Origin: a virus
Length of the DNA: 29,325 nucleotides
IMG/VR virus record: IMGVR_UViG_3300034166_000754
Coordinates: 1 to 29,325 of that record
Strand: one strand, 5' to 3'
A program made the translations under genes and the position numbers. Of the stretch, positions 227 to 22,113 are shown one piece after another (position 1 is the stretch's first letter; each line of letters opens with the position of its first letter). The notes under the pieces are model-generated. The model had not been told where the DNA came from. It saw only the letters and a list, made by a program, of their open reading frames with translations, and made no database searches.

Positions 227-367
227 TTACTCACTTTCTTTTTTCAATTCTAACATTAGGGACTGACATTTCTTTCTGTCATATTTCTTTTTATTGGGCA
301 CGGCAGAGGCAGCATTGCTACGGCGTAATTCCATAAGCCTGCGTAATTCCTCTTGTGTTTTTTTCAT
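227..367 (-). CDS. Small basic hypothetical protein (46 aa)
   Basis: The peptide begins MKKTQEELRRLMELRRSNAA and ends in a Lys/Arg-rich stretch (NKKKYDRKKCQ, then LMLELKKESE). The N-terminal half should be an amphipathic helix and the middle is strongly basic, which would suit nucleic-acid binding (inference). Similar tiny RRSNAA...KKKYDRKK-type proteins occur in actinophage early regions. The start is well supported: the ATG lies 5 nt downstream of a good -35/-10 pair on the same strand, so the mRNA would be essentially leaderless, and there is no convincing Shine-Dalgarno. The last codons overlap the promoter of the downstream gene-88-like gene. Confidence 0.6.
   Translation of the reverse strand: MKKTQEELRRLMELRRSNAASAVPNKKKYDRKKCQSLMLELKKESE
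247..271 (-). promoter_or_regulatory. Early-type promoter A (AAATGTCAG-N7-TGTTAGAAT)
   Basis: On the minus strand AAATGTCAG (271-263) is followed after 7 nt by TGTTAGAAT (255-247), an extended -10. The same arrangement recurs at 1452-1476, 2371-2395, 3680-3704 and, on the plus strand, 4032-4056. This copy sits within the end of the 46-aa gene and faces the gene-88-like gene. Confidence 0.55.
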
Positions 368-372
368 AGTTA

Positions 373-401
373 ATCTTAGCAGAAATTGGGAAAAATATCA
401 A
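373..401 (-). promoter_or_regulatory. Sigma70-like promoter giving a leaderless mRNA
   Basis: On the minus strand, -35 TTGATA (401-396), a 17-nt spacer and -10 TAAGAT (378-373). The ATG of the 46-aa gene follows 5 nt after the -10, so transcription would start at or next to the start codon. Confidence 0.6.
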
Positions 402-410
402 GCACACGTA

Positions 411-430
411 AATAGGACAAAATAGGACAA
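411..430. repeat. Perfect 10-bp tandem repeat, AATAGGACAA x2
   Basis: Two back-to-back copies of AATAGGACAA lie directly upstream of the minus-strand -35 at 401-396. A tandem site one helical turn apart suits a protein-binding (activator or repressor) site. It sits inside an intergenic cassette resembling 1521-1574. Confidence 0.5.
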
Positions 431-444
431 AACGCCTCGGGCTT

Positions 445-684
445 TTATTGCAACATCATTAAATCAAATTGATCATACTCATCAACTTGAATTACTTCTC
501 TTTCACCAAAATCATTTTCAATTTCTAAACTATATCCATCAGGTAGTGAAACTATATCTATGATAGATACAACATCACCATCAACAAGAATAAAATCATC
601 AACCATTAACTGGCCTGCAGTTAATACATCAATCTTATAGTAATCCATAATAGGAATGGTATCATCTTTTTCAAGTGTTATCAT
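445..684 (-). CDS. Conserved phage hypothetical protein (79 aa), acidic
   Basis: From the preferred ATG the product starts MITLEKDDTIPIMDYYKI and carries VDDFILVDGDVVSIIDI, then SLEIENDFGEREVIQVDEYD. The alternating hydrophobic/acidic pattern predicts a small all-beta domain; proteins of this type ('...ND.GE.E.I.VD..D.FDL') are common in actinophages with no known function. The frame extends upstream to 699, but the ATG at 684 has GAGG at good spacing and lies 1 nt after the stop of the preceding gene, so 684 fits coupled translation better. No metal-binding or membrane signature. It is the last gene of the 1426-445 group. Confidence 0.7.
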   Translation of the reverse strand: MITLEKDDTIPIMDYYKIDVLTAGQLMVDDFILVDGDVVSIIDIVSLPDGYSLEIENDFGEREVIQVDEYDQFDLMMLQ

Positions 685-685
685 A

Positions 686-1021
686 TTATTCCTCATCATA
701 TTCTAGTGATAGCGGAAAGTCATCTGAGCCATCTTGCCACTCATCTACTGGGTCAATAAAAGTATGCAAGTGGTGTTGCTCTACGATAGCGTGTGCAGGT
801 GCGTGAGTCATGCCACGATATAAAATCTGAAAGTCGCCAACCATAGGCATTTCAATCATGCGGTCATAGTCCTCATCATAGTAAGCGTCAATCGCCTCTA
901 TGCAAGGTGCAACCATTTCTGCGGGTACTGGTGGATAGTGATTACCCTTTAAGTGATAAAGTAATTGTGTTTCTAGGTCTAACACGCTATCTTGAATTCC
1001 TAGTGCTGTAATTGAACCCAT
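686..1021 (-). CDS. Conserved actinophage-type hypothetical protein (111 aa)
   Basis: The product contains LLYHLKGNHYPPVPAEMV (residues 21-38), CIEAIDAYYDEDYDRMIEMP and ends with a YRGMTHAPAHAIVEQHHL motif. Both motifs are familiar from small proteins of actinobacteriophage early regions, where the function is unknown. Many His and acidic residues in the second motif could bind metal, but no known catalytic pattern is complete. The gene sits between genes on the same strand with gaps of only 1 nt, so it is almost certainly co-transcribed with them from the promoter at 1452-1476. Confidence 0.8.
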   Translation of the reverse strand: MGSITALGIQDSVLDLETQLLYHLKGNHYPPVPAEMVAPCIEAIDAYYDEDYDRMIEMPMVGDFQILYRGMTHAPAHAIVEQHHLHTFIDPVDEWQDGSDDFPLSLEYDEE

Positions 1022-1022
1022 A

Positions 1023-1232
1023 TTATTTTACGCTCACATTTCCATTACGATAGAAGGTCTTAGTATACATTTTACCCGTAGGGTCTGACAAGTTATAGGT
1101 TGCGTATTCTTTAGCATCGCCAAAGTCTACACATTTAGTCCATGCGTTTACTGCCTCTAGCATATCGCTAACTCGCAGGGTATGGATAAGTTCTCCGTCA
1201 TACGAAGTAGTAAGTGAATAGTTATATTCCAT
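1023..1232 (-). CDS. Conserved actinophage-type small protein (69 aa)
   Basis: The sequence runs MEYNYSLTTSYDGELIHTLR, then VSDMLEAVNAWTKCVDFGDA, then YATYNLSDPTGKMYTKTFYR. The pattern 'Y.LTTSYDGELIHTLRV.DM.EAV.AW..C.D.G.A.EYATYNL..P.GKMYTKTF' is a recognisable mini-family in actinophages: a predicted beta-hairpin, a helix, then a beta-hairpin. Function unknown. The start overlaps the stop of the preceding gene (shared A in TAATG), indicating translational coupling. Confidence 0.78.
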   Translation of the reverse strand: MEYNYSLTTSYDGELIHTLRVSDMLEAVNAWTKCVDFGDAKEYATYNLSDPTGKMYTKTFYRNGNVSVK

Positions 1233-1426
1233 TATGCGTTCTCCTTATTGTATTCGTTCATTTCATTTTCAGCATACCATGCGGAATACTCTTGAGCAAG
1301 TCTTTGCCCTTTTTCACAATCAGCGCAGAAGTCATTTATAAATCCTTCGCTATCCATATCTACAAATAAGATACCTTCGTCATAGCAAGTATAACAAGTT
1401 CCAATTTCGTCAAATAAGTTTCCCAT
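1232..1426 (-). CDS. Small zinc-ribbon-like protein (64 aa)
   Basis: Two Cys pairs are present: GTCYTCYDEG near residues 11-14 and FCADCEKGQRLAQEYSAWYA near residues 34-37. Two CxxC knuckles about 20 residues apart predict a treble-clef or zinc-ribbon fold followed by an acidic helix. Such proteins usually bind nucleic acid or protein partners; the target is unknown. An AAAGGAAAA sequence precedes the ATG. It is the first gene after the early-type promoter at 1452-1476 and leads the group ending at 445. Confidence 0.75.
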   Translation of the reverse strand: MGNLFDEIGTCYTCYDEGILFVDMDSEGFINDFCADCEKGQRLAQEYSAWYAENEMNEYNKENA

Positions 1427-1451
1427 TAGTTTTCCTTTCTTTAATAATACA

Positions 1452-1476
1452 ATCTTATATCATGGGGCTGACATTT
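1452..1476 (-). promoter_or_regulatory. Early-type promoter B
   Basis: AAATGTCAG (1476-1468), 7 nt, then ATATAAGAT with -10 TAAGAT (1457-1452) on the minus strand. The expected start is near 1445, about 19 nt before the ATG at 1426. This copy lacks the TGn extension. Confidence 0.55.
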
Positions 1477-1512
1477 TCAAGTTCATAAGCCAAGAATCTG
1501 GAGAATTTGGGG

Positions 1513-1528
1513 TGTGTTTTTAATCACA
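1513..1528. promoter_or_regulatory. CRP/FNR-like dyad TGTGT-N6-TCACA
   Basis: The palindrome (also readable as GTGTG-N8-CACAC, 1512-1529) differs from TGTGA-N6-TCACA at one position. Its centre is 66 bp upstream of the centre of the -10 box at 1452-1457. Confidence 0.45.
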
Positions 1529-1537
1529 CGTAAAGCC

Positions 1538-1558
1538 TGTGGATAACCCTGTGGAAAA
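1538..1558. promoter_or_regulatory. DnaA box TGTGGATAA plus near-box TGTGGAAAA
   Basis: TGTGGATAA (1538-1546) is the exact complement of the bacterial DnaA box TTATCCACA. TGTGGAAAA (1550-1558) has one mismatch and follows in the same orientation with a 12-bp period, matching the spacing of the pair at 3797/3809. Confidence 0.5.
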
Positions 1559-1584
1559 CGCCCCGAGTTTTTTAGAAAAAGGTT

Positions 1585-1607
1585 TGAGCAGTTTTAGATC
1601 GTGCTCA
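1585..1607 (-). terminator. Probable bidirectional intrinsic terminator
   Basis: TGAGCA (1585-1590) pairs with TGCTCA (1602-1607) around an 11-nt loop. A T-run follows on each strand (TTTTTTT at 1611-1617 on plus; AACCTTTTTC on minus). It lies just past the stop of the 48-aa gene and would end the 2338-1620 minus-strand group. The stem is short. Confidence 0.5.
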
Positions 1608-1619
1608 GGATTTTTTTAT

Positions 1620-1766
1620 TTATACTTTTAGTGCTTTACGCAATTCATTACGCAATCTGCGAATTTCTTTTTCTTGTGCAATATTTTGTTTCCAAAATAA
1701 ACACATTACAGTTAAGCAACCAAGCAGTGCAATTATGATTGCAAGTAAATCCCAGTTAGTTAGCAT
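1620..1766 (-). CDS. Small membrane protein with coiled-coil tail (48 aa)
   Basis: The peptide begins MLTNWDLLAIIIALLGCLTV and continues MCLFWKQNIAQEKEIRRLRN. Residues 7-25 form one clear membrane-spanning helix, and the remainder is a charged, heptad-like helix rich in Glu and Arg. The layout, a short N-terminal segment, one membrane span and a basic cytoplasmic coil, recalls small phage membrane proteins (holin/spanin-like or superinfection factors), but nothing specific can be assigned. GGAG lies at good spacing upstream of the ATG, and the gene overlaps the end of the upstream gene by 11 nt, so it is the last gene of that operon. Confidence 0.7.
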   Translation of the reverse strand: MLTNWDLLAIIIALLGCLTVMCLFWKQNIAQEKEIRRLRNELRKALKV

Positions 1767-1947
1767 TTCTTATCTCCACTCCTTCACATGCTTTTGTGAA
1801 TTTATCACGTTTGAAATTTGGGTTATCGCTTGCAAAAAAATCTGCAAAGTCATTTACTAAATCTTCCCACCAGTAATTATCTATCATAGCGTTTTGATAC
1901 CCTGAAAGAATTTCTGAAACGGCAACATAGTCTTTGCGTGTCATCAT
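1756..1947 (-). CDS. Conserved actinophage mini-protein, 'DNPNFKRDKFTKAC' family (63 aa)
   Basis: The sequence opens MMTRKDYVAVSEILSGYQNA and contains FADFFASDNPNFKRDKFTKA followed by CEGVEI. A 'MT+KDY...(I/V)..IL...' start, a helix and a final '(A/S)DNP.F.R.+F..AC' is one of the most widespread small-protein patterns in actinobacteriophage genomes. It is predicted all-helical and its function is unknown. It is the best single clue to host phylum in this arm. The start codon overlaps the upstream stop (TAATG); translation could also use the adjacent second ATG. Confidence 0.82.
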   Translation of the reverse strand: MMTRKDYVAVSEILSGYQNAMIDNYWWEDLVNDFADFFASDNPNFKRDKFTKACEGVEIRNAN

Positions 1948-2153
1948 TATTCTGCCACCTTTAGAGTTGCAAAAGAGTTGCCTGCGTTTAATTCATCAAG
2001 TGCTGGCTGAATCATTGGTGCAAGTAATTCTTTGAGCATGCCTTCAAGCATTAGCACCTGCATTTCATCAGGTAGTGATAGCAAGCGAATTGCGGTTGGG
2101 TTTGTTTCATCTAATTCAGTTATGAATTGTAGTGAGTGTGTAATTGTTTTCAT
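1947..2153 (-). CDS. Hypothetical helical protein (68 aa)
   Basis: From the coupled ATG the product begins MKTITHSLQFITELDETNPT and is mostly helical, with an amphipathic centre (LLSLPDEMQVLMLEGMLKEL). A longer frame reaches 2204, but those codons lie inside the upstream gene. The ATG at 2153 shares its A with the upstream TAA and has GGAAAGG ahead of it, so I chose it. No known domain recognised. Confidence 0.68.
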   Translation of the reverse strand: MKTITHSLQFITELDETNPTAIRLLSLPDEMQVLMLEGMLKELLAPMIQPALDELNAGNSFATLKVAE

Positions 2154-2338
2154 TATAGGGTAGCCTTTCCACGAAGTGTTCCACGAATTCCAAGAGTATC
2201 GCAAGCGATTTTTACTGATACGCCAACTGGTAATTGTGTTGGGTATGTTGATATGAATTGAGCAACCGCACCTTTTGAGGGTAGGTTGATAACCTTAACG
2301 CTTCCGTTAAAGGTTTCTAGATTTACTTTGTATGACAT
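2153..2338 (-). CDS. Small hypothetical protein, paralogue of the plus-strand gene at 4413 (61 aa)
   Basis: The product (MSYKVNLETFNGSVKVINLP...) aligns by eye with the protein of the plus-strand gene 4413-4595: both share L-T-x-NGS-x-K near the start, QF(I/V)xxY in the middle and LP(I/V)Gx(A/S)V followed by LGI near the end. The predicted fold is a beta-hairpin, helix, beta pattern. Function unknown. GAAGGAG precedes the ATG. It is the first gene after the early-type promoter at 2371-2395 and heads the operon running to 1620. A paralogue on the opposite strand across the control region suggests the two arms descend from an inverted duplication. Confidence 0.72.
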   Translation of the reverse strand: MSYKVNLETFNGSVKVINLPSKGAVAQFISTYPTQLPVGVSVKIACDTLGIRGTLRGKATL

Positions 2339-2360
2339 AGGTTGTCTCCTTCTTTTTCTT

Positions 2361-2395
2361 TGATAGGACTATCCTATCATTTACGACTGACATTT
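2361..2395 (-). promoter_or_regulatory. Early-type promoter C with 8-bp operator-like dyad
   Basis: AAATGTCAG (2395-2387), 7 nt, then TGATAGGAT (2379-2371). A perfect inverted repeat TGATAGGA-CTA-TCCTATCA (2361-2379) covers the -10 and the predicted start site, where bound protein would block polymerase. The leader is about 26 nt. Confidence 0.62.
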
Positions 2396-2421
2396 ATTCA
2401 ATTTTGGGGGGTGGTTGGTGG

Positions 2422-2437
2422 TGTGAGTTATCTCACA
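2422..2437. promoter_or_regulatory. Perfect TGTGA-N6-TCACA dyad
   Basis: It matches the CRP consensus in both half-sites and is also a 6-bp hairpin (TGTGAG-TTAT-CTCACA). The centre is 56 bp upstream of the -10 centre of the promoter at 2371. It overlaps the TGA stop of the 40-aa gene. Confidence 0.5.
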
Positions 2438-2555
2438 ACGCACCTTCCTGCGATAGACTTAGGGTTAAATCTATTAGTTCAGCGGTAGTGGCTTCGGATA
2501 GGTCTACCCATCCTGCGCCATCTTCGTTCATGCGAAAAATTTCTACATATCCCAC
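2433..2555 (-). CDS. Small hypothetical protein (40 aa), GTG start
   Basis: The frame reads (V/M)GYVEIFRMNEDGAGWVDLS, then EATTAELIDLTLSLSQEGAL. It starts with GTG 2 nt after the stop of the preceding gene, with AGGTGA overlapping that stop as ribosome-binding site. The pattern (beta-hairpin, then a short helix) resembles other mini-proteins of phage early operons; no function can be given. An opposite-strand frame over 2404-2613 is the shadow of this gene and its neighbour. Confidence 0.6.
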   Translation of the reverse strand: MGYVEIFRMNEDGAGWVDLSEATTAELIDLTLSLSQEGAL

Positions 2556-2557
2556 TA

Positions 2558-2773
2558 TTATTCACCTACCTTTACTGCGATTGTGCGGAAAGTCTTGCGA
2601 CCCCAATTATTAAAACCGCTATTTGGAGCAATTTCTACCAAATAGGTTTCTGTATTATCACCATACCAAATTGGGGCAGGGTGTTTTTCTGCGGAGATAA
2701 TTTCGCCCTGTAAAGTTTTTGAGCGATAGTTTTTTCCTACAAGTAGGTTTTCTATTGTGTATAGGTTTGCCAT
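2558..2773 (-). CDS. Small hypothetical protein (71 aa)
   Basis: The chosen product starts MANLYTIENLLVGKNYRSKT and contains HPAPIWYGDNTETYLVEI and a C-terminal KTFRTIAVKVGE. It looks like a small all-beta domain with conserved-looking aromatic residues; no family recognised. The frame extends to 2848, but those codons are basic, unlike the rest, and contain promoter-like sequence. The ATG at 2773 has AGAAGGTG before it, so I chose it. Likely co-transcribed with the 40-aa gene downstream. Confidence 0.66.
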   Translation of the reverse strand: MANLYTIENLLVGKNYRSKTLQGEIISAEKHPAPIWYGDNTETYLVEIAPNSGFNNWGRKTFRTIAVKVGE

Positions 2774-2800
2774 GGTGGCACCTTCTTTCTTTTTCATTTT

Positions 2801-2820
2801 CTTACTATGTAAGTTTACCA
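2801..2820 (-). promoter_or_regulatory. Weak candidate early promoter with start-site dyad
   Basis: TGGTAAACT (2820-2812) could be an extended -10. CTTAC-TAT-GTAAG (2801-2813) forms a dyad at the expected start, as in promoters C and D. The AAATGTCAG element is absent or badly degenerate, so this is weaker. Confidence 0.35.
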
Positions 2821-2848
2821 AAAAAATCTCAAGAAAGCAAATCGCCAC

Positions 2849-3058
2849 GCCGTAAATCTCAAAATATGGACGATTTTTTGTGTGATCTTAACCACACGTC
2901 TTAAATTATACACAGGCTGTGGACGACACGCCGTGGGAGTCGGGCTGCATTTTTATGCAATGATTTGCATATTTATTTTGTTATGTGCAACCAAAGTGAA
3001 TAACCAAATAACGCAAATAAAAAAAAGAATGCAGCGTTACCATTTAAATAAAATTCTT
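2849..3058. other. Non-coding regulatory stretch: CRP-like dyad, DnaA-type box, inverted repeat
   Basis: No convincing gene. It holds TGTGA-N6-CCACA (2881-2896), a DnaA-type box TTATACACA (2906-2914, fitting TTATNCACA), the 12-mer ACGACACGCCGT (2923-2934) whose complement occurs at 3899-3910, and a perfect 7-bp inverted repeat TATGCAA-TGAT-TTGCATA (2954-2971) in AT-rich sequence. A plus-strand frame at 2882-3070 has no credible protein character. Confidence 0.5.
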
Positions 3059-3241
3059 TCACTTTTCTAACATCGCAATCAGTTCATCAGAAAATGCAAG
3101 TGCAGTTTCATTTTGTTGTTCAGGTGTGAGTGTTGCCCACAAATAACCAAGCAAATAAGCATATCCACTATCTACATTTCCATTACGGATTTTAGTAGAC
3201 ATGGCTTTTACTTCTTGTAGTAGTTGCATATCAGTTGCCAT
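3059..3241 (-). CDS. Small helical hypothetical protein (60 aa)
   Basis: The product begins MATDMQLLQEVKAMSTKIRN and continues GYAYLLGYLWATLTPEQQNE, ending in an amphipathic helix. It looks all-helical with an aromatic patch in the middle; no known domain recognised. AAAAGGAG precedes the ATG, which shares its A with the stop of the upstream gene (TAATG). It is the last gene of the group starting at 3625. Confidence 0.72.
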   Translation of the reverse strand: MATDMQLLQEVKAMSTKIRNGNVDSGYAYLLGYLWATLTPEQQNETALAFSDELIAMLEK

Positions 3242-3345
3242 TAGTTGTAACTCCTTTTACATTCTGAACATACGAAATTAATTTTGCAATAGCAACCTGC
3301 ATATACAGGCGCTGGATTTTCATAGTAGTCGTCATAGTAGTCCAT
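3241..3345 (-). CDS. Tyr/Cys-rich mini-protein (34 aa)
   Basis: It reads MDYYDDYYENPAPVYAGCYC then KINFVCSECKRSYN: an acidic, Tyr-rich N-terminus and a CxC...CxxC set of four cysteines that could hold one zinc ion. Small size lowers certainty, but it lies in a run of coupled genes and its stop overlaps the next start. Function unknown. Confidence 0.55.
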   Translation of the reverse strand: MDYYDDYYENPAPVYAGCYCKINFVCSECKRSYN

Positions 3346-3351
3346 TATAGA

Positions 3352-3465
3352 TTACCCCCAACATTCTTGACAAGTAGCAGTTAGAATTTTTGCATCTTCA
3401 AGAGCAACTTCTACAGTTGGCTCTTCGCAAATTTGACATGAGAGCATTATCATTGTGTTATTCAT
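3352..3465 (-). CDS. Zinc-ribbon mini-protein (37 aa)
   Basis: It reads MNNTMIMLSCQICEEPTVEV with C10xxC13 and ends ATCQECWG with C32xxC35, a classic two-knuckle zinc ribbon. GAAAGGA precedes the ATG. It lies 4 nt after the upstream gene. Nucleic-acid or protein binding is the usual role of such ribbons; the specific role is unknown. Confidence 0.62.
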   Translation of the reverse strand: MNNTMIMLSCQICEEPTVEVALEDAKILTATCQECWG

Positions 3466-3469
3466 TTAT

Positions 3470-3625
3470 TTATCCTTTCACACAACAAGAGCAATAAGTA
3501 GGGAGAGAGAAAAGGTGTTTTAGCAACGCCTTTCTTTCATAGGTAGTTAATTCAGGGTGATTAGATTTAACACCACCATGTTGATATTCATAGACAATTT
3601 TATCTAATGTTTTTTGAGTGAGCAT
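3470..3625 (-). CDS. Small hypothetical protein (51 aa)
   Basis: It begins MLTQKTLDKIVYEYQHGGVK and ends TYCSCCVKG. The first part is helical, the middle (HPELTTYERKALLKHLF) looks like a helix-turn-helix-sized segment, and the end has a C-S-C-C cluster. AAAGGAGC precedes the ATG at good spacing. It is the first gene after the early-type promoter at 3680-3704, so it leads the 3625-3059 operon. Confidence 0.62.
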   Translation of the reverse strand: MLTQKTLDKIVYEYQHGGVKSNHPELTTYERKALLKHLFSLPTYCSCCVKG

Positions 3626-3665
3626 TTAATGCTCCTTTCGTTAAGAGGCTTACTTCTGATTCAAC

Positions 3666-3704
3666 CTTCTATACATAGAAGTCTATCAGAGGGGTCTGAC
3701 ATTT
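3666..3704 (-). promoter_or_regulatory. Early-type promoter D with 7-bp start-site dyad
   Basis: AAATGTCAG (3704-3696), 7 nt, TGATAGACT (3688-3680). CTTCTAT-AC-ATAGAAG (3666-3681) is a perfect inverted repeat at the expected transcription start. The leader would be about 47 nt. Confidence 0.6.
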
Positions 3705-3755
3705 ACTAGCCAGTAGGTATGACAATTCGGACATTTTAAAATGTGAGGTAGGTCA

Positions 3756-3840
3756 TGTGGATAACTTGAGCGTAAATCGTAGTGTGATATACATCATGTG
3801 GATAAACCTGTGGATAACTACCCGAGCCAGCCCGAGCCAA
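3756..3840. other. Candidate replication origin: three perfect DnaA boxes
   Basis: TGTGGATAA occurs at 3756-3764, 3797-3805 and 3809-3817, all in the same orientation, the last two 12 bp apart. A 10-bp near-perfect tandem repeat (CCCGAGCCAG/CCCGAGCCAA, 3821-3840) follows. The stretch is non-coding and lies where minus-strand genes to the left diverge from plus-strand genes to the right. Further DnaA-type boxes are at 1538 and 2906. Origin function is inference. Confidence 0.5.
3783..3798. promoter_or_regulatory. Partial CRP-like dyad TGTGA-N6-TCATG
   Basis: The left half-site is perfect and the right one degenerate. It sits between the first and second DnaA boxes and touches the second. Confidence 0.3.
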
Positions 3841-3863
3841 TGTCCGTTTTGCACCCTTTGTCG

Positions 3864-3879
3864 TGTGGTGTAAATCACT
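3864..3879. promoter_or_regulatory. CRP-like dyad TGTGG-N6-TCACT
   Basis: One mismatch per half-site from TGTGA-N6-TCACA. Its centre is 66 bp upstream of the -10 centre of the plus-strand promoter at 3935-3940, the same distance as at promoter B. Confidence 0.4.
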
Positions 3880-3911
3880 AATTACATGCGTGTTATTTAC
3901 GGCGTGTCGTG

Positions 3912-3940
3912 TTGACTTTTGGCGGTATCTATGTTATACT
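3912..3940 (+). promoter_or_regulatory. Strong sigma70-like promoter for the right arm
   Basis: -35 TTGACT (3912-3917), a 17-nt spacer and extended -10 TGTTATACT (-10 at 3935-3940). It is the best consensus promoter in the window. Transcription would start near 3947 and run through the MSLSK mini-frames into the gene at 4093. Confidence 0.65.
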
Positions 3941-3971
3941 TCCAGTATCAAATTAAATAAAGAAGCAGGGT

Positions 3972-4024
3972 ATGAGCCTTAGCAAATAAATGTGAGATAA
4001 ATCACAGTGAGCCTAAGCAAATAA
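3972..4024 (+). repeat. Direct repeat encoding twin MSLSK mini-frames around a CRP-like dyad
   Basis: TGAGCCTTAGCAAATAA (3973-3989) and TGAGCCTAAGCAAATAA (4008-4024) match at 16 of 17 positions. With their first base each makes a complete five-codon frame (ATG- and GTG-started) reading M-S-L-S-K-stop, and the one difference is synonymous. Between them lies TGTGA-GATAAA-TCACA (3991-4006), a perfect CRP-type dyad centred 55 bp upstream of the -10 centre at 4051-4056. Confidence 0.5.
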
Positions 4025-4031
4025 GACCCTA

Positions 4032-4056
4032 AAATGTCAGTGGTATCTGATAGGAT
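4032..4056 (+). promoter_or_regulatory. Early-type promoter E
   Basis: AAATGTCAG (4032-4040), 7 nt, TGATAGGAT (4048-4056), identical in layout to promoter C on the other strand. A palindrome ATACTAGTAT follows at the expected start site. Confidence 0.6.
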
Positions 4057-4092: not shown

Positions 4093-4275
4093 ATGACTAC
4101 ATTAACAATAAACAATGTGTGCAAAAAGCACACCCCTCATCTACCTTCTATCTCTGAAGTAAATGATGACCAATTCACTTTCTGCGAGGTTTGTGAACAA
4201 AATATAGAGCGTTGGTATAACGATACTGACCCTGAGCGTCTACCTATGTGGACAAGTTGGGTGGTATCTAAATGA
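4093..4275 (+). CDS. Cys-containing actinophage mini-protein, 'WTSW' family (60 aa)
   Basis: The product (MTTLTINNVCKKHTPHLPSI...) has C10-x2-H13, then F-C-E-V-C-E-Q-N-I-E near residues 31-40, and ends DPERLPMWTSWVVSK. The C/H pair plus CxxC predicts one zinc site. The ending (R)LP-x-WT-x-W is familiar from small proteins of actinophages; function unknown. AAAGGTGG stands before the ATG. First gene of the right-arm operon, followed by two overlapping or abutting genes. Confidence 0.75.
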   Translation: MTTLTINNVCKKHTPHLPSISEVNDDQFTFCEVCEQNIERWYNDTDPERLPMWTSWVVSK

Positions 4276-20049: not shown

Positions 20050-20082
20050 CTTATAATATTTTAATAGAAAGTTGGAACATAA

Positions 20083-22113
20083 ATGTCAGACATCTTTTCT
20101 TTTCGTTTAACAGATGAATTCATAAATAAATATGTTAGAGTATCTGCACCTTTTGGTTTTACAGATGCAGGCTCTAACTCATTAGGCGAAATTACCTTTA
20201 TACGTACATATTCTCGTATGAAGGAGGATGGCACAAAAGAAAGATGGCATGAGGTTTGTAAGCGGGTAATTGAAGGAATGTACTCAGTACAAAAGAATCA
20301 CGCCAAAGATAATCGTTTACCTTGGAATGACAACAAGGCGCAAAAGTCTGCTCAAGAAGCCTATGACAGAATGTTTAACTTAAAGTGGACTCCACCAGGA
20401 CGTGGTTTATGGGCATTTGGAACTTCTATGACTATGGAAAAACGCAATTCTGCCTCCCTCCAAAATTGTGCCATGGTCTCTACTCGTGATATTGATCGTA
20501 ATGATCCAGGAGCCTTGTTTGCATGGGTGATGGATGCCTTAATGCTAGGTATAGGTGTAGGGTTTGACACAATCGGCCAAGATAAAGAGATGGCTATACA
20601 TGCTCCAACAGAACCAGAAAATATATGGGAAATTCCAGATACTCGTGAAGGTTGGGTAGACTCTGTAAGAATGCTTTTAAATTCATACCTACGCCCTAAT
20701 CAGGCTATACAGAAGTTTAACTATGACCTTATCCGTCCTCTAGGTGCCCCTATAAAAGGCTTTGGAGGGGTTGCCAGCGGTCCAGCACCACTTATTGCAC
20801 TACATAACAAGATAGATACAGTAATTGGTGGTAGAGCAGGAGAAAAACTTGATTCTAGAGCAATAGTAGATGTTGTTAACCTGATTGGTACATGTGTTGT
20901 TTCTGGAAATGTTCGTCGCTCTGCTACTTTGGCTTTAGGGCTGGCGGGAGATCAAGATTTTATTAATCTCAAAAATGCAGAGGTTTTTCCAGATAGAAAT
21001 TCTTTTGATTCAAAAAATCCAGGATGGGCATGGATGTCTAATAACTCTATTGCTGCAGAAGTTGGAACAAAATATGAAGACTATGTGGATTTAATTGCAG
21101 ACAATGGTGAGCCAGGTTTTATTTGGCTAGATGTTGCTAGAGATTATGGCAGACTAGCAGATGCTCCAGACTATAAAGATTCTCGTGTTATGGGATTTAA
21201 TCCATGTGCTGAACAACCATTAGAATCTTATGAGTTATGCACACTTGTAGAAGTTCATTTAAATCGTCATGAAGATAAAGAAGATTTTCTTCGTACATTA
21301 AAATTTGCATATTTATATGGCAAGACAGTTACGTTAATGCCAACACATTGGCAAACAACAAATGGCATTATGCAACGCAATCGTCGTATCGGAACATCTT
21401 TAACAGGCATTGCATCATTTGCAGATACAAAGGGAATGCCAACAGTTCGTAATTGGATGGACGAAGGATATAAAAAGATTCGTTTATATGATCATTCCTA
21501 TTCAGAATGGCTATGTGTTCGTGAATCAATTCGTGTAACTACCGTCAAACCTTCTGGCTCTGTGTCATTACTTTCTGGTGCAACCCCTGGAGTTCATTGG
21601 GGTCCTGGAGGAGCATTTTATCTTCGTGCTATTAGGTTTGGCAATACAGATCCAATGCTTCATTTATTTAAAGCAGCAGGGTATAAAATTGAAGACGACG
21701 TAGTGTCAGCAAATACTTCAGTAGTATATTTCCCAGTAGCATCTGGACATCCAAGATCTGAGAAGGATGTAAGTCTTTTTGAAAAGATTGGTTTGGCTGC
21801 TACCGCTCAAAAATATTGGTCTGACAATGGCGTATCTGTAACTCTTTCATTTAACAAAGAGTCAGAGTCTAAGCATATTGCACCAGCCCTCCATATGTAC
21901 GAGGGGCAACTAAAAGCAGTTTCATTCTTGCCAATGGGCAACCAAACATATCCACAACAGCCATACACTCAAATAACAAAAGAAGAATATAACTCATATG
22001 TTGGAAAAATTGGCAAGATTGACTGGTCTGCTATTTATGATGGAGTAGAAAATCTTGAAGCACAAGGAGAGGCATACTGCTCAACAGACGCATGTGAGAT
22101 TAAATTATATTAG
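20083..22113 (+). CDS. nrdJ: Adenosylcobalamin-dependent (class II) ribonucleoside-triphosphate reductase
   Basis: It reduces ribonucleotides to deoxyribonucleotides for phage DNA synthesis, using coenzyme B12 to make the thiyl radical, so works with or without oxygen. Visible landmarks: SASLQNCAMVST (Cys129, first of the redox pair), FNPCAEQPLESYELC (372-386) with Asn373, the radical Cys375, Glu377 and the second redox Cys386, and a C-terminal CSTDACEIKLY whose pair Cys666/Cys671 re-reduces the active site. GNVRRSA and NPCAEQ fit the monomeric Lactobacillus-type enzyme (about 740 aa); 676 aa is slightly short, with all key residues kept. It has its own promoter and lies between fibre and head genes, which is unusual. 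Confidence 0.9.
   Translation: MSDIFSFRLTDEFINKYVRVSAPFGFTDAGSNSLGEITFIRTYSRMKEDGTKERWHEVCKRVIEGMYSVQKNHAKDNRLPWNDNKAQKSAQEAYDRMFNLKWTPPGRGLWAFGTSMTMEKRNSASLQNCAMVSTRDIDRNDPGALFAWVMDALMLGIGVGFDTIGQDKEMAIHAPTEPENIWEIPDTREGWVDSVRMLLNSYLRPNQAIQKFNYDLIRPLGAPIKGFGGVASGPAPLIALHNKIDTVIGGRAGEKLDSRAIVDVVNLIGTCVVSGNVRRSATLALGLAGDQDFINLKNAEVFPDRNSFDSKNPGWAWMSNNSIAAEVGTKYEDYVDLIADNGEPGFIWLDVARDYGRLADAPDYKDSRVMGFNPCAEQPLESYELCTLVEVHLNRHEDKEDFLRTLKFAYLYGKTVTLMPTHWQTTNGIMQRNRRIGTSLTGIASFADTKGMPTVRNWMDEGYKKIRLYDHSYSEWLCVRESIRVTTVKPSGSVSLLSGATPGVHWGPGGAFYLRAIRFGNTDPMLHLFKAAGYKIEDDVVSANTSVVYFPVASGHPRSEKDVSLFEKIGLAATAQKYWSDNGVSVTLSFNKESESKHIAPALHMYEGQLKAVSFLPMGNQTYPQQPYTQITKEEYNSYVGKIGKIDWSAIYDGVENLEAQGEAYCSTDACEIKLY

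Follow-up and report, generated by a model that had tools for sequence, protein, structure and literature searches.

The window analysed here is a 29,325-nucleotide (nt) stretch of viral DNA, positions 1 to 29,325 of IMG/VR record IMGVR_UViG_3300034166_000754. Five exact copies of the nonamer AAATGTCAG lie in its first 4.1 kb, and these five sites and their relatives in other viral contigs are a promoter family. The sites are probably sigma-A promoters of the RecA-NDp (PafBC) class, and the early genes behind them would be co-activated by two host regulators, CRP and PafBC. This assignment draws on properties computed here: the sequence and geometry of the sites, the helical phasing of upstream CRP/GlxR-like palindromes, the sharing of the element with host recA promoters, and the presence or absence of the regulators. 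From these we infer binding, activation, early timing, and a freshwater low-GC actinobacterial host.

A Promoter Family with Fixed Geometry

The five sites (P1 to P5, Table 1) lie exactly where an earlier note on this DNA had placed them. A TANNNT motif follows 10 nt after the nonamer in every copy. When the first 4.1 kb is shuffled with a first-order Markov model, 0.001 such pairs are expected versus the five seen, and the nonamer alone is expected 0.06 times. These shuffles, together with the relatives described below, rule out chance copies as the origin of the sites. The earlier note had described the layout as nonamer-N7-TGn followed by a -10, with a spacer that varies. The -10 is present in all five copies, but the extended TG is present in only four; the copy at 1476-1452 reads ATATAAGAT. 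The spacer does vary in its letters, but not in its length: the offset is 10 nt at all five window sites, and 312 of 339 nonamers in the related loci share it. The note was right that the nonamer is too close to the -10 for a normal -35. The logos of the phage sites carry no -35 signal, and none was found upstream of the nonamer. Two other candidates were set aside. The only further exact copy of AAATGTCAG, at 20081 on the plus strand, overlaps the start of the ribonucleotide reductase gene, has no -10, and is attributed to chance. A TGTCAG at 1085-1090 on the minus strand, with TAAAAT, falls within a coding sequence that is conserved in relatives.

Relatives were collected by scanning IMG/VR with AAATGTCAG-N7-TGNTAGNNT and fetching loci from the matches listed, among which many contigs carry several copies. 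Because the motif itself was the means of finding the family loci, the counts given here describe these loci rather than all phages. To avoid circularity, nonamers outside the search pattern were also counted separately, and 150 of these 176 have TANNNT at offset 10. TGTCAG-N7-TGNTANNNT occurs in all 30 larger records, with up to 12 copies per record that are generally clustered in one arm; the same pattern read backwards gives one match over all 30. With the transcription start predicted throughout at 7 nt past the -10, a ribosome-binding site and start codon lie downstream of 183 of 212 non-redundant promoters, at a median of 25 nt from that start. The genes behind the promoters are small (median, 63 amino acids). 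Among forty of the longest products, those matched belong to unnamed PHROGs, DUF families, or GP88. The promoters are presumably early, judging from this small-gene content and from their location. L187 and L188, the nearest relatives by the window's neighbouring gene (81-82% protein identity), have retained several such promoters in this arm, so the nonamer is not missing from close relatives. One record (G316, the record of L033) has twelve promoters, mostly of the form TGTCAGG-N6-TG, with a spacer unlike that of the other phages.

The carriers form a large, mostly uncultured group of phages, apparently infecting freshwater actinobacteria, and low-GC members of these bacteria are the likely host candidates. 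The window itself has a GC content of 37%. Its head maturation protease resembles those of Streptomyces phages, and its class II ribonucleotide reductase (20083-22113) is about 60% identical to those of Mycobacterium phage Gaia and lake phage DSL-LC01. WhiB proteins occur in actinobacteria and their phages, and 17 of the 30 phage records encode one.

The -26 Element Is Shared with Host Promoters

RecA-NDp, the promoter that serves the mycobacterial DNA-damage response independent of RecA, has the consensus tTGTCRgtg-8nt-TAnnnT (PMC5656591), and promoters of this type extend to other actinobacteria (PMC8223512). PafBC acts by sigma adaptation: once switched on by single-stranded DNA (ssDNA), it slots in between sigma region 4 and the DNA, where it recognises a -26 element (PMC11804915, PMC10609372). 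The phage sites have the RecA-NDp geometry, with 10 nt between TGTCRG and TAnnnT, and their lack of -35 information is consistent with this class. As for the weaker, lower-case end of the consensus (TGTCRGTG), a minority of the phage sites have G after the T, and CC is commoner.

Host genomes carry the same element. TGTCRG-N10-TANNNT is found upstream of recA in 16 of 25 actinobacterial loci, from mostly small genomes. Its commonest form is TGTCAGTGG..CCTGCTACCTT-like and is followed by a LexA (SOS) box. When 18 mostly small actinobacterial genomes were scanned with a pattern derived from the phage sites, 26 matches were obtained versus 2 in the control; 10 of the 26 precede recA and 4 precede carD. 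A stricter variant run over genome contigs gives only 20 matches, a number near chance, three of which (two in Rothia, one in Arthrobacter) lie before the same large gene, nuclease/helicase-like by our own reading. PafC is present in 24 of 28 actinobacterial genomes. The earlier note had proposed a phage-specific promoter class. The sites do form a promoter class, but phages are not alone in having the -26/-10 element, which is identical to the host RecA-NDp (PafBC) promoter.

Two observations concern the host leaders themselves. In four loci from small actinobacteria (L221, L224, L229, and L235), a TGTCAG-N7-TGGTAGAAT promoter precedes carD, which suggests that carD may be under PafBC control in these organisms. 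In six recA leaders of small actinobacteria (L159, L160, L168, L172, L177, and L178), a conserved GTCAGTG..CCGTACCTT past the LexA box resembles a second -26/-10 pair with CGTCAG.

The -26 element could instead be read by a factor from the phage, such as a sigma adaptor or a WhiB-like or small protein, with the likeness to RecA-NDp arising by convergence or capture. WhiB is elsewhere a partner of sigma-4, and its frequency in the phage records would suit such a factor, as would phage spacers that are unlike host spacers. However, the core and its spacing are the same as in host recA promoters, no WYL protein was found in the 30 phage records, and pre-made host factors fit early genes better. 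We therefore consider a phage factor unlikely. ClgR, a ClpR-like regulator, might also act on the motif in place of PafBC, since binding of ClgR to RecA-NDp was reported earlier, for the recA P1 promoter (PMC5656591). Later structural and in vitro work assigned the -26 element to PafBC (PMC11804915, PMC10609372), and we give ClgR almost no weight.

CRP/GlxR Palindromes Lie in Helical Phase

Upstream of most of the window's promoters are CRP-type palindromes, a feature that was not in the earlier note. The early arm contains two perfect TGTGA-N6-TCACA sites, of which 0.02 are expected, and several that match at 8 or 9 of 10 positions (Table 1). A palindrome was scored as in phase if it matched at 8/10 or better and its center fell within 1 bp of -64.5, -74.5, or -84.5. 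By this definition, 83 of 218 non-redundant promoters have an in-phase palindrome, versus 2 with a palindrome in three control bands of equal width placed half a helical turn away; scrambled half-sites give 0-3 matches. The test was also run in reverse and without reference to TGTCAG. Starting from 215 perfect palindromes, 102 in-phase extended -10s were found, 81 of which have TGTCAG at -26.

A second scan, in which the gap between palindrome and promoter was free over 27-50 nt, yielded 76 new loci. Non-redundant gaps placed the centers at -54.5 (2), -64.5 +/- 1 (17), -73.5 to -76.5 (32), -84.5 to -86.5 (11), and -95.5/-96.5 (3). Off the ladder were seven centers at -69.5/-70.5 and one at -57.5, and in at least some promoters with a -69.5 center, another site overlaps it at -85.5. 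The steps of the ladder equal one helical turn (10 bp), and the ladder repeats in other contigs. Absolute CRP positions may shift by a few bases because the starts are predicted, but the spacing is unaffected.

A CRP orthologue is present in all 13 candidate-host genomes, with one strong orthologue per genome. These orthologues match the CRP of M. tuberculosis and GlxR-type structures, and their recognition-helix segment is identical to that of M. tuberculosis CRP. No CRP-type helix-turn-helix (HTH) was detected in the 19 phages searched, the window included. Neither a phage-encoded CRP nor a phage-encoded PafBC was found in the phages searched.

The sites could be plain extended -10 sigma-A promoters served by CRP/GlxR alone, with TGTCAG as a constitutive -26 contact or a leftover. 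An extended -10 can substitute for a -35, and P6 and P7 lack TGTCAG but have CRP-like sites in phase. TGTCAG nevertheless stands at one exact offset in most promoters, whether or not a CRP site is present, and this explanation seems to us quite improbable.

The palindromes could alternatively be operators of a phage repressor with the nonamer as a half-site, which would make a lysogeny switch comparable to the stoperators of cluster A mycobacteriophages. Many dispersed, repeated sites in intergenic DNA would fit such a switch, as would the inverted repeats at start sites that the earlier note had pointed out. These repeats are indeed present, for example, CTTCTATGTATAGAAG at P4 and GATAGGATAGTCCTATC at P3. 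Short inverted repeats cover the -10 or start at 240, 2364, 3673, and 4063 and in relatives, somewhat more often than chance predicts; the mean best arm is 3.56 versus 3.19 +/- 0.06 when halves are swapped between sites. Their sequence and center vary, however, and a fixed operator at the start site was rejected on this account; they are retained as a minor feature only. The upstream palindromes lie mostly 54-96 bp from the start on a 10-bp ladder, which is the geometry of an activator. Their sequence is that of a CRP/GlxR site, and, with the search for a repressor confined to the protein families named here, no CRP-type HTH turned up in the phages searched. The note's label of operator is less likely than that of activator sites, and a repressor switch is very hard to credit.

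Proposed Mechanism

More than 119 viral stretches contain the composite promoter, a phased CRP site combined with the TGTCAG -26/-10 element. None of 395 actinobacterial genomes searched does, and on this ground the composite was rejected as a host feature. Since the parts are of host type and the composite was found in phages only, the combination, rather than the parts, appears to be phage-specific.

We propose the following sequence of events at these promoters. Host CRP/GlxR would bind the palindrome at -64.5, -74.5, or -84.5 and help to recruit RNA polymerase from the same helix face, in a class I arrangement. Host PafBC, activated by ssDNA from phage replication or chromosome breakdown, would sit between sigma region 4 and the DNA and read TGTCAG at -26 instead of a -35. 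The TGN extended -10 would complete promoter recognition. With inputs from both CRP and ssDNA-activated PafBC, the promoter would be strongly active when the cell is infected or under DNA stress. A more tentative extension, for which the odds are somewhat less than even, is that the composite works as an AND-type promoter, not found in the host-class genomes searched, that senses cAMP/CRP and, via PafBC, ssDNA. If so, the early genes would sense the energy state of the cell and also how far DNA replication or breakdown has advanced during infection.

Several findings weigh against joint activation by CRP and PafBC. P1 has no CRP-like site upstream, and about 60% of non-redundant promoters lack an in-phase site of at least 8/10. 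The phage spacer is often ACCC, whereas hosts mostly have TGG. Three small low-GC genomes (G132, G162, and G235) have PafC without the strict motif at recA. The two loci where the relative of the neighbouring gene is less similar (L189 and L190) show no promoter cluster, and the motif is missing from four named phages that encode related proteins, DSL-LC01, Gaia, Sham, and Dorin.

Features of the Early Arm

Table 1. Promoters and CRP/GlxR-like sites in the early arm of the window; centers are relative to the predicted start of the promoter named
Feature	Position	Strand	Nonamer	Sequence or match	Predicted start or center	Downstream
P1	247-271	-	263-271	AAATGTCAG-N7-TGT-TAGAAT	240	GP88/phrog_1392, ATG about 222, cut by window edge
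P2	1452-1476	-	1468-1476	AAATGTCAG-N10-TAAGAT, no TG	1445	open reading frame (ORF) 1426-1232, then three more small ORFs
P3	2371-2395	-	2387-2395	AAATGTCAG-N7-TGA-TAGGAT	2364	ORF 2338-2153
P4	3680-3704	-	3696-3704	AAATGTCAG-N7-TGA-TAGACT	3673	ORF 3625-3470
P5	4032-4056	+	4032-4040	AAATGTCAG-N7-TGA-TAGGAT	4063	ORF 4093-4275
P6	2812-2820	-		extended -10 TGGTAAACT, no TGTCAG	2805	
P7	3912-3940	+		ordinary promoter TTGACT-N17-TATACT, extended TG	3947	
CRP/GlxR-like	1513-1528	-		9/10	-75.5 (P2)	
CRP/GlxR-like	2422-2437	-		TGTGAGATAACTCACA, 10/10	-65.5 (P3)	
CRP/GlxR-like	2881-2896	-		9/10	-83.5 (P6)	
Weaker CRP-like	3742-3757	-		8/10	-76.5 (P4)	
Weaker CRP-like	3864-3879	+		8/10	-75.5 (P7)	
CRP/GlxR-like	3991-4006	+		TGTGAGATAAATCACA, 10/10	-64.5 (P5)	

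Downstream of P7 (window 3912-3990), a five-codon reading frame, ATGAGCCTTAGCAAATAA, lies near 3972. Perfect DnaA boxes (TTATCCACA) are found at 1538-1546, 3756-3764, 3797-3805, and 3809-3817, all on the minus strand. Three of the four lie between the divergent arms and adjoin CRP-like sites, and this region is possibly a replication origin.

Comparison with Known Systems

In the open-access library searched, we found no paper that ties PafBC or GlxR to phage early promoters. If the proposed assignment is correct, these phages would enlist the activator that actinobacteria use in their damage response as a transcription factor for many promoters, which would constitute a natural dual-input promoter and a link from ssDNA sensing to early phage transcription that is open to test. 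The compact signature may also aid host prediction for uncultured actinophages.

The phage sites resemble the RecA-NDp/PafBC promoters of mycobacteria and other actinobacteria, such as recA P1, in their TGTCRG core, the 10 nt to TANNNT, and the lack of a -35, and the same element precedes recA and carD in small actinobacteria. They differ in that they serve small genes of no known function, prefer AAA before the core and often have ACCC after it, and have an extended TG, frequently together with a CRP site in phase. With class I CRP/GlxR promoters they share the upstream TGTGA-N6-TCACA at positions one helical turn apart, the ladder of -64.5/-74.5/-84.5 from predicted starts comparing with -61.5/-71.5/-82.5 for class I CRP sites in E. 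coli; unlike those promoters, they have no -35, which a -26 element of the PafBC type replaces.

Removal of a repressor is a known way for host DNA-damage systems to turn prophages on, and cyanophage genes under host Pho/NtcA control have host-regulator sites in phage promoters. The cyanophage cases involve one regulator and nutrient genes, whereas here two regulators would act at one promoter of fixed geometry. As in LexA-controlled temperate phages such as Bacillus phage GIL01 (PMC4551915), transcription would be coupled to the host DNA-damage response. In the GIL01 type, a host repressor is removed, whereas a host activator acting at many dispersed promoters is proposed here.

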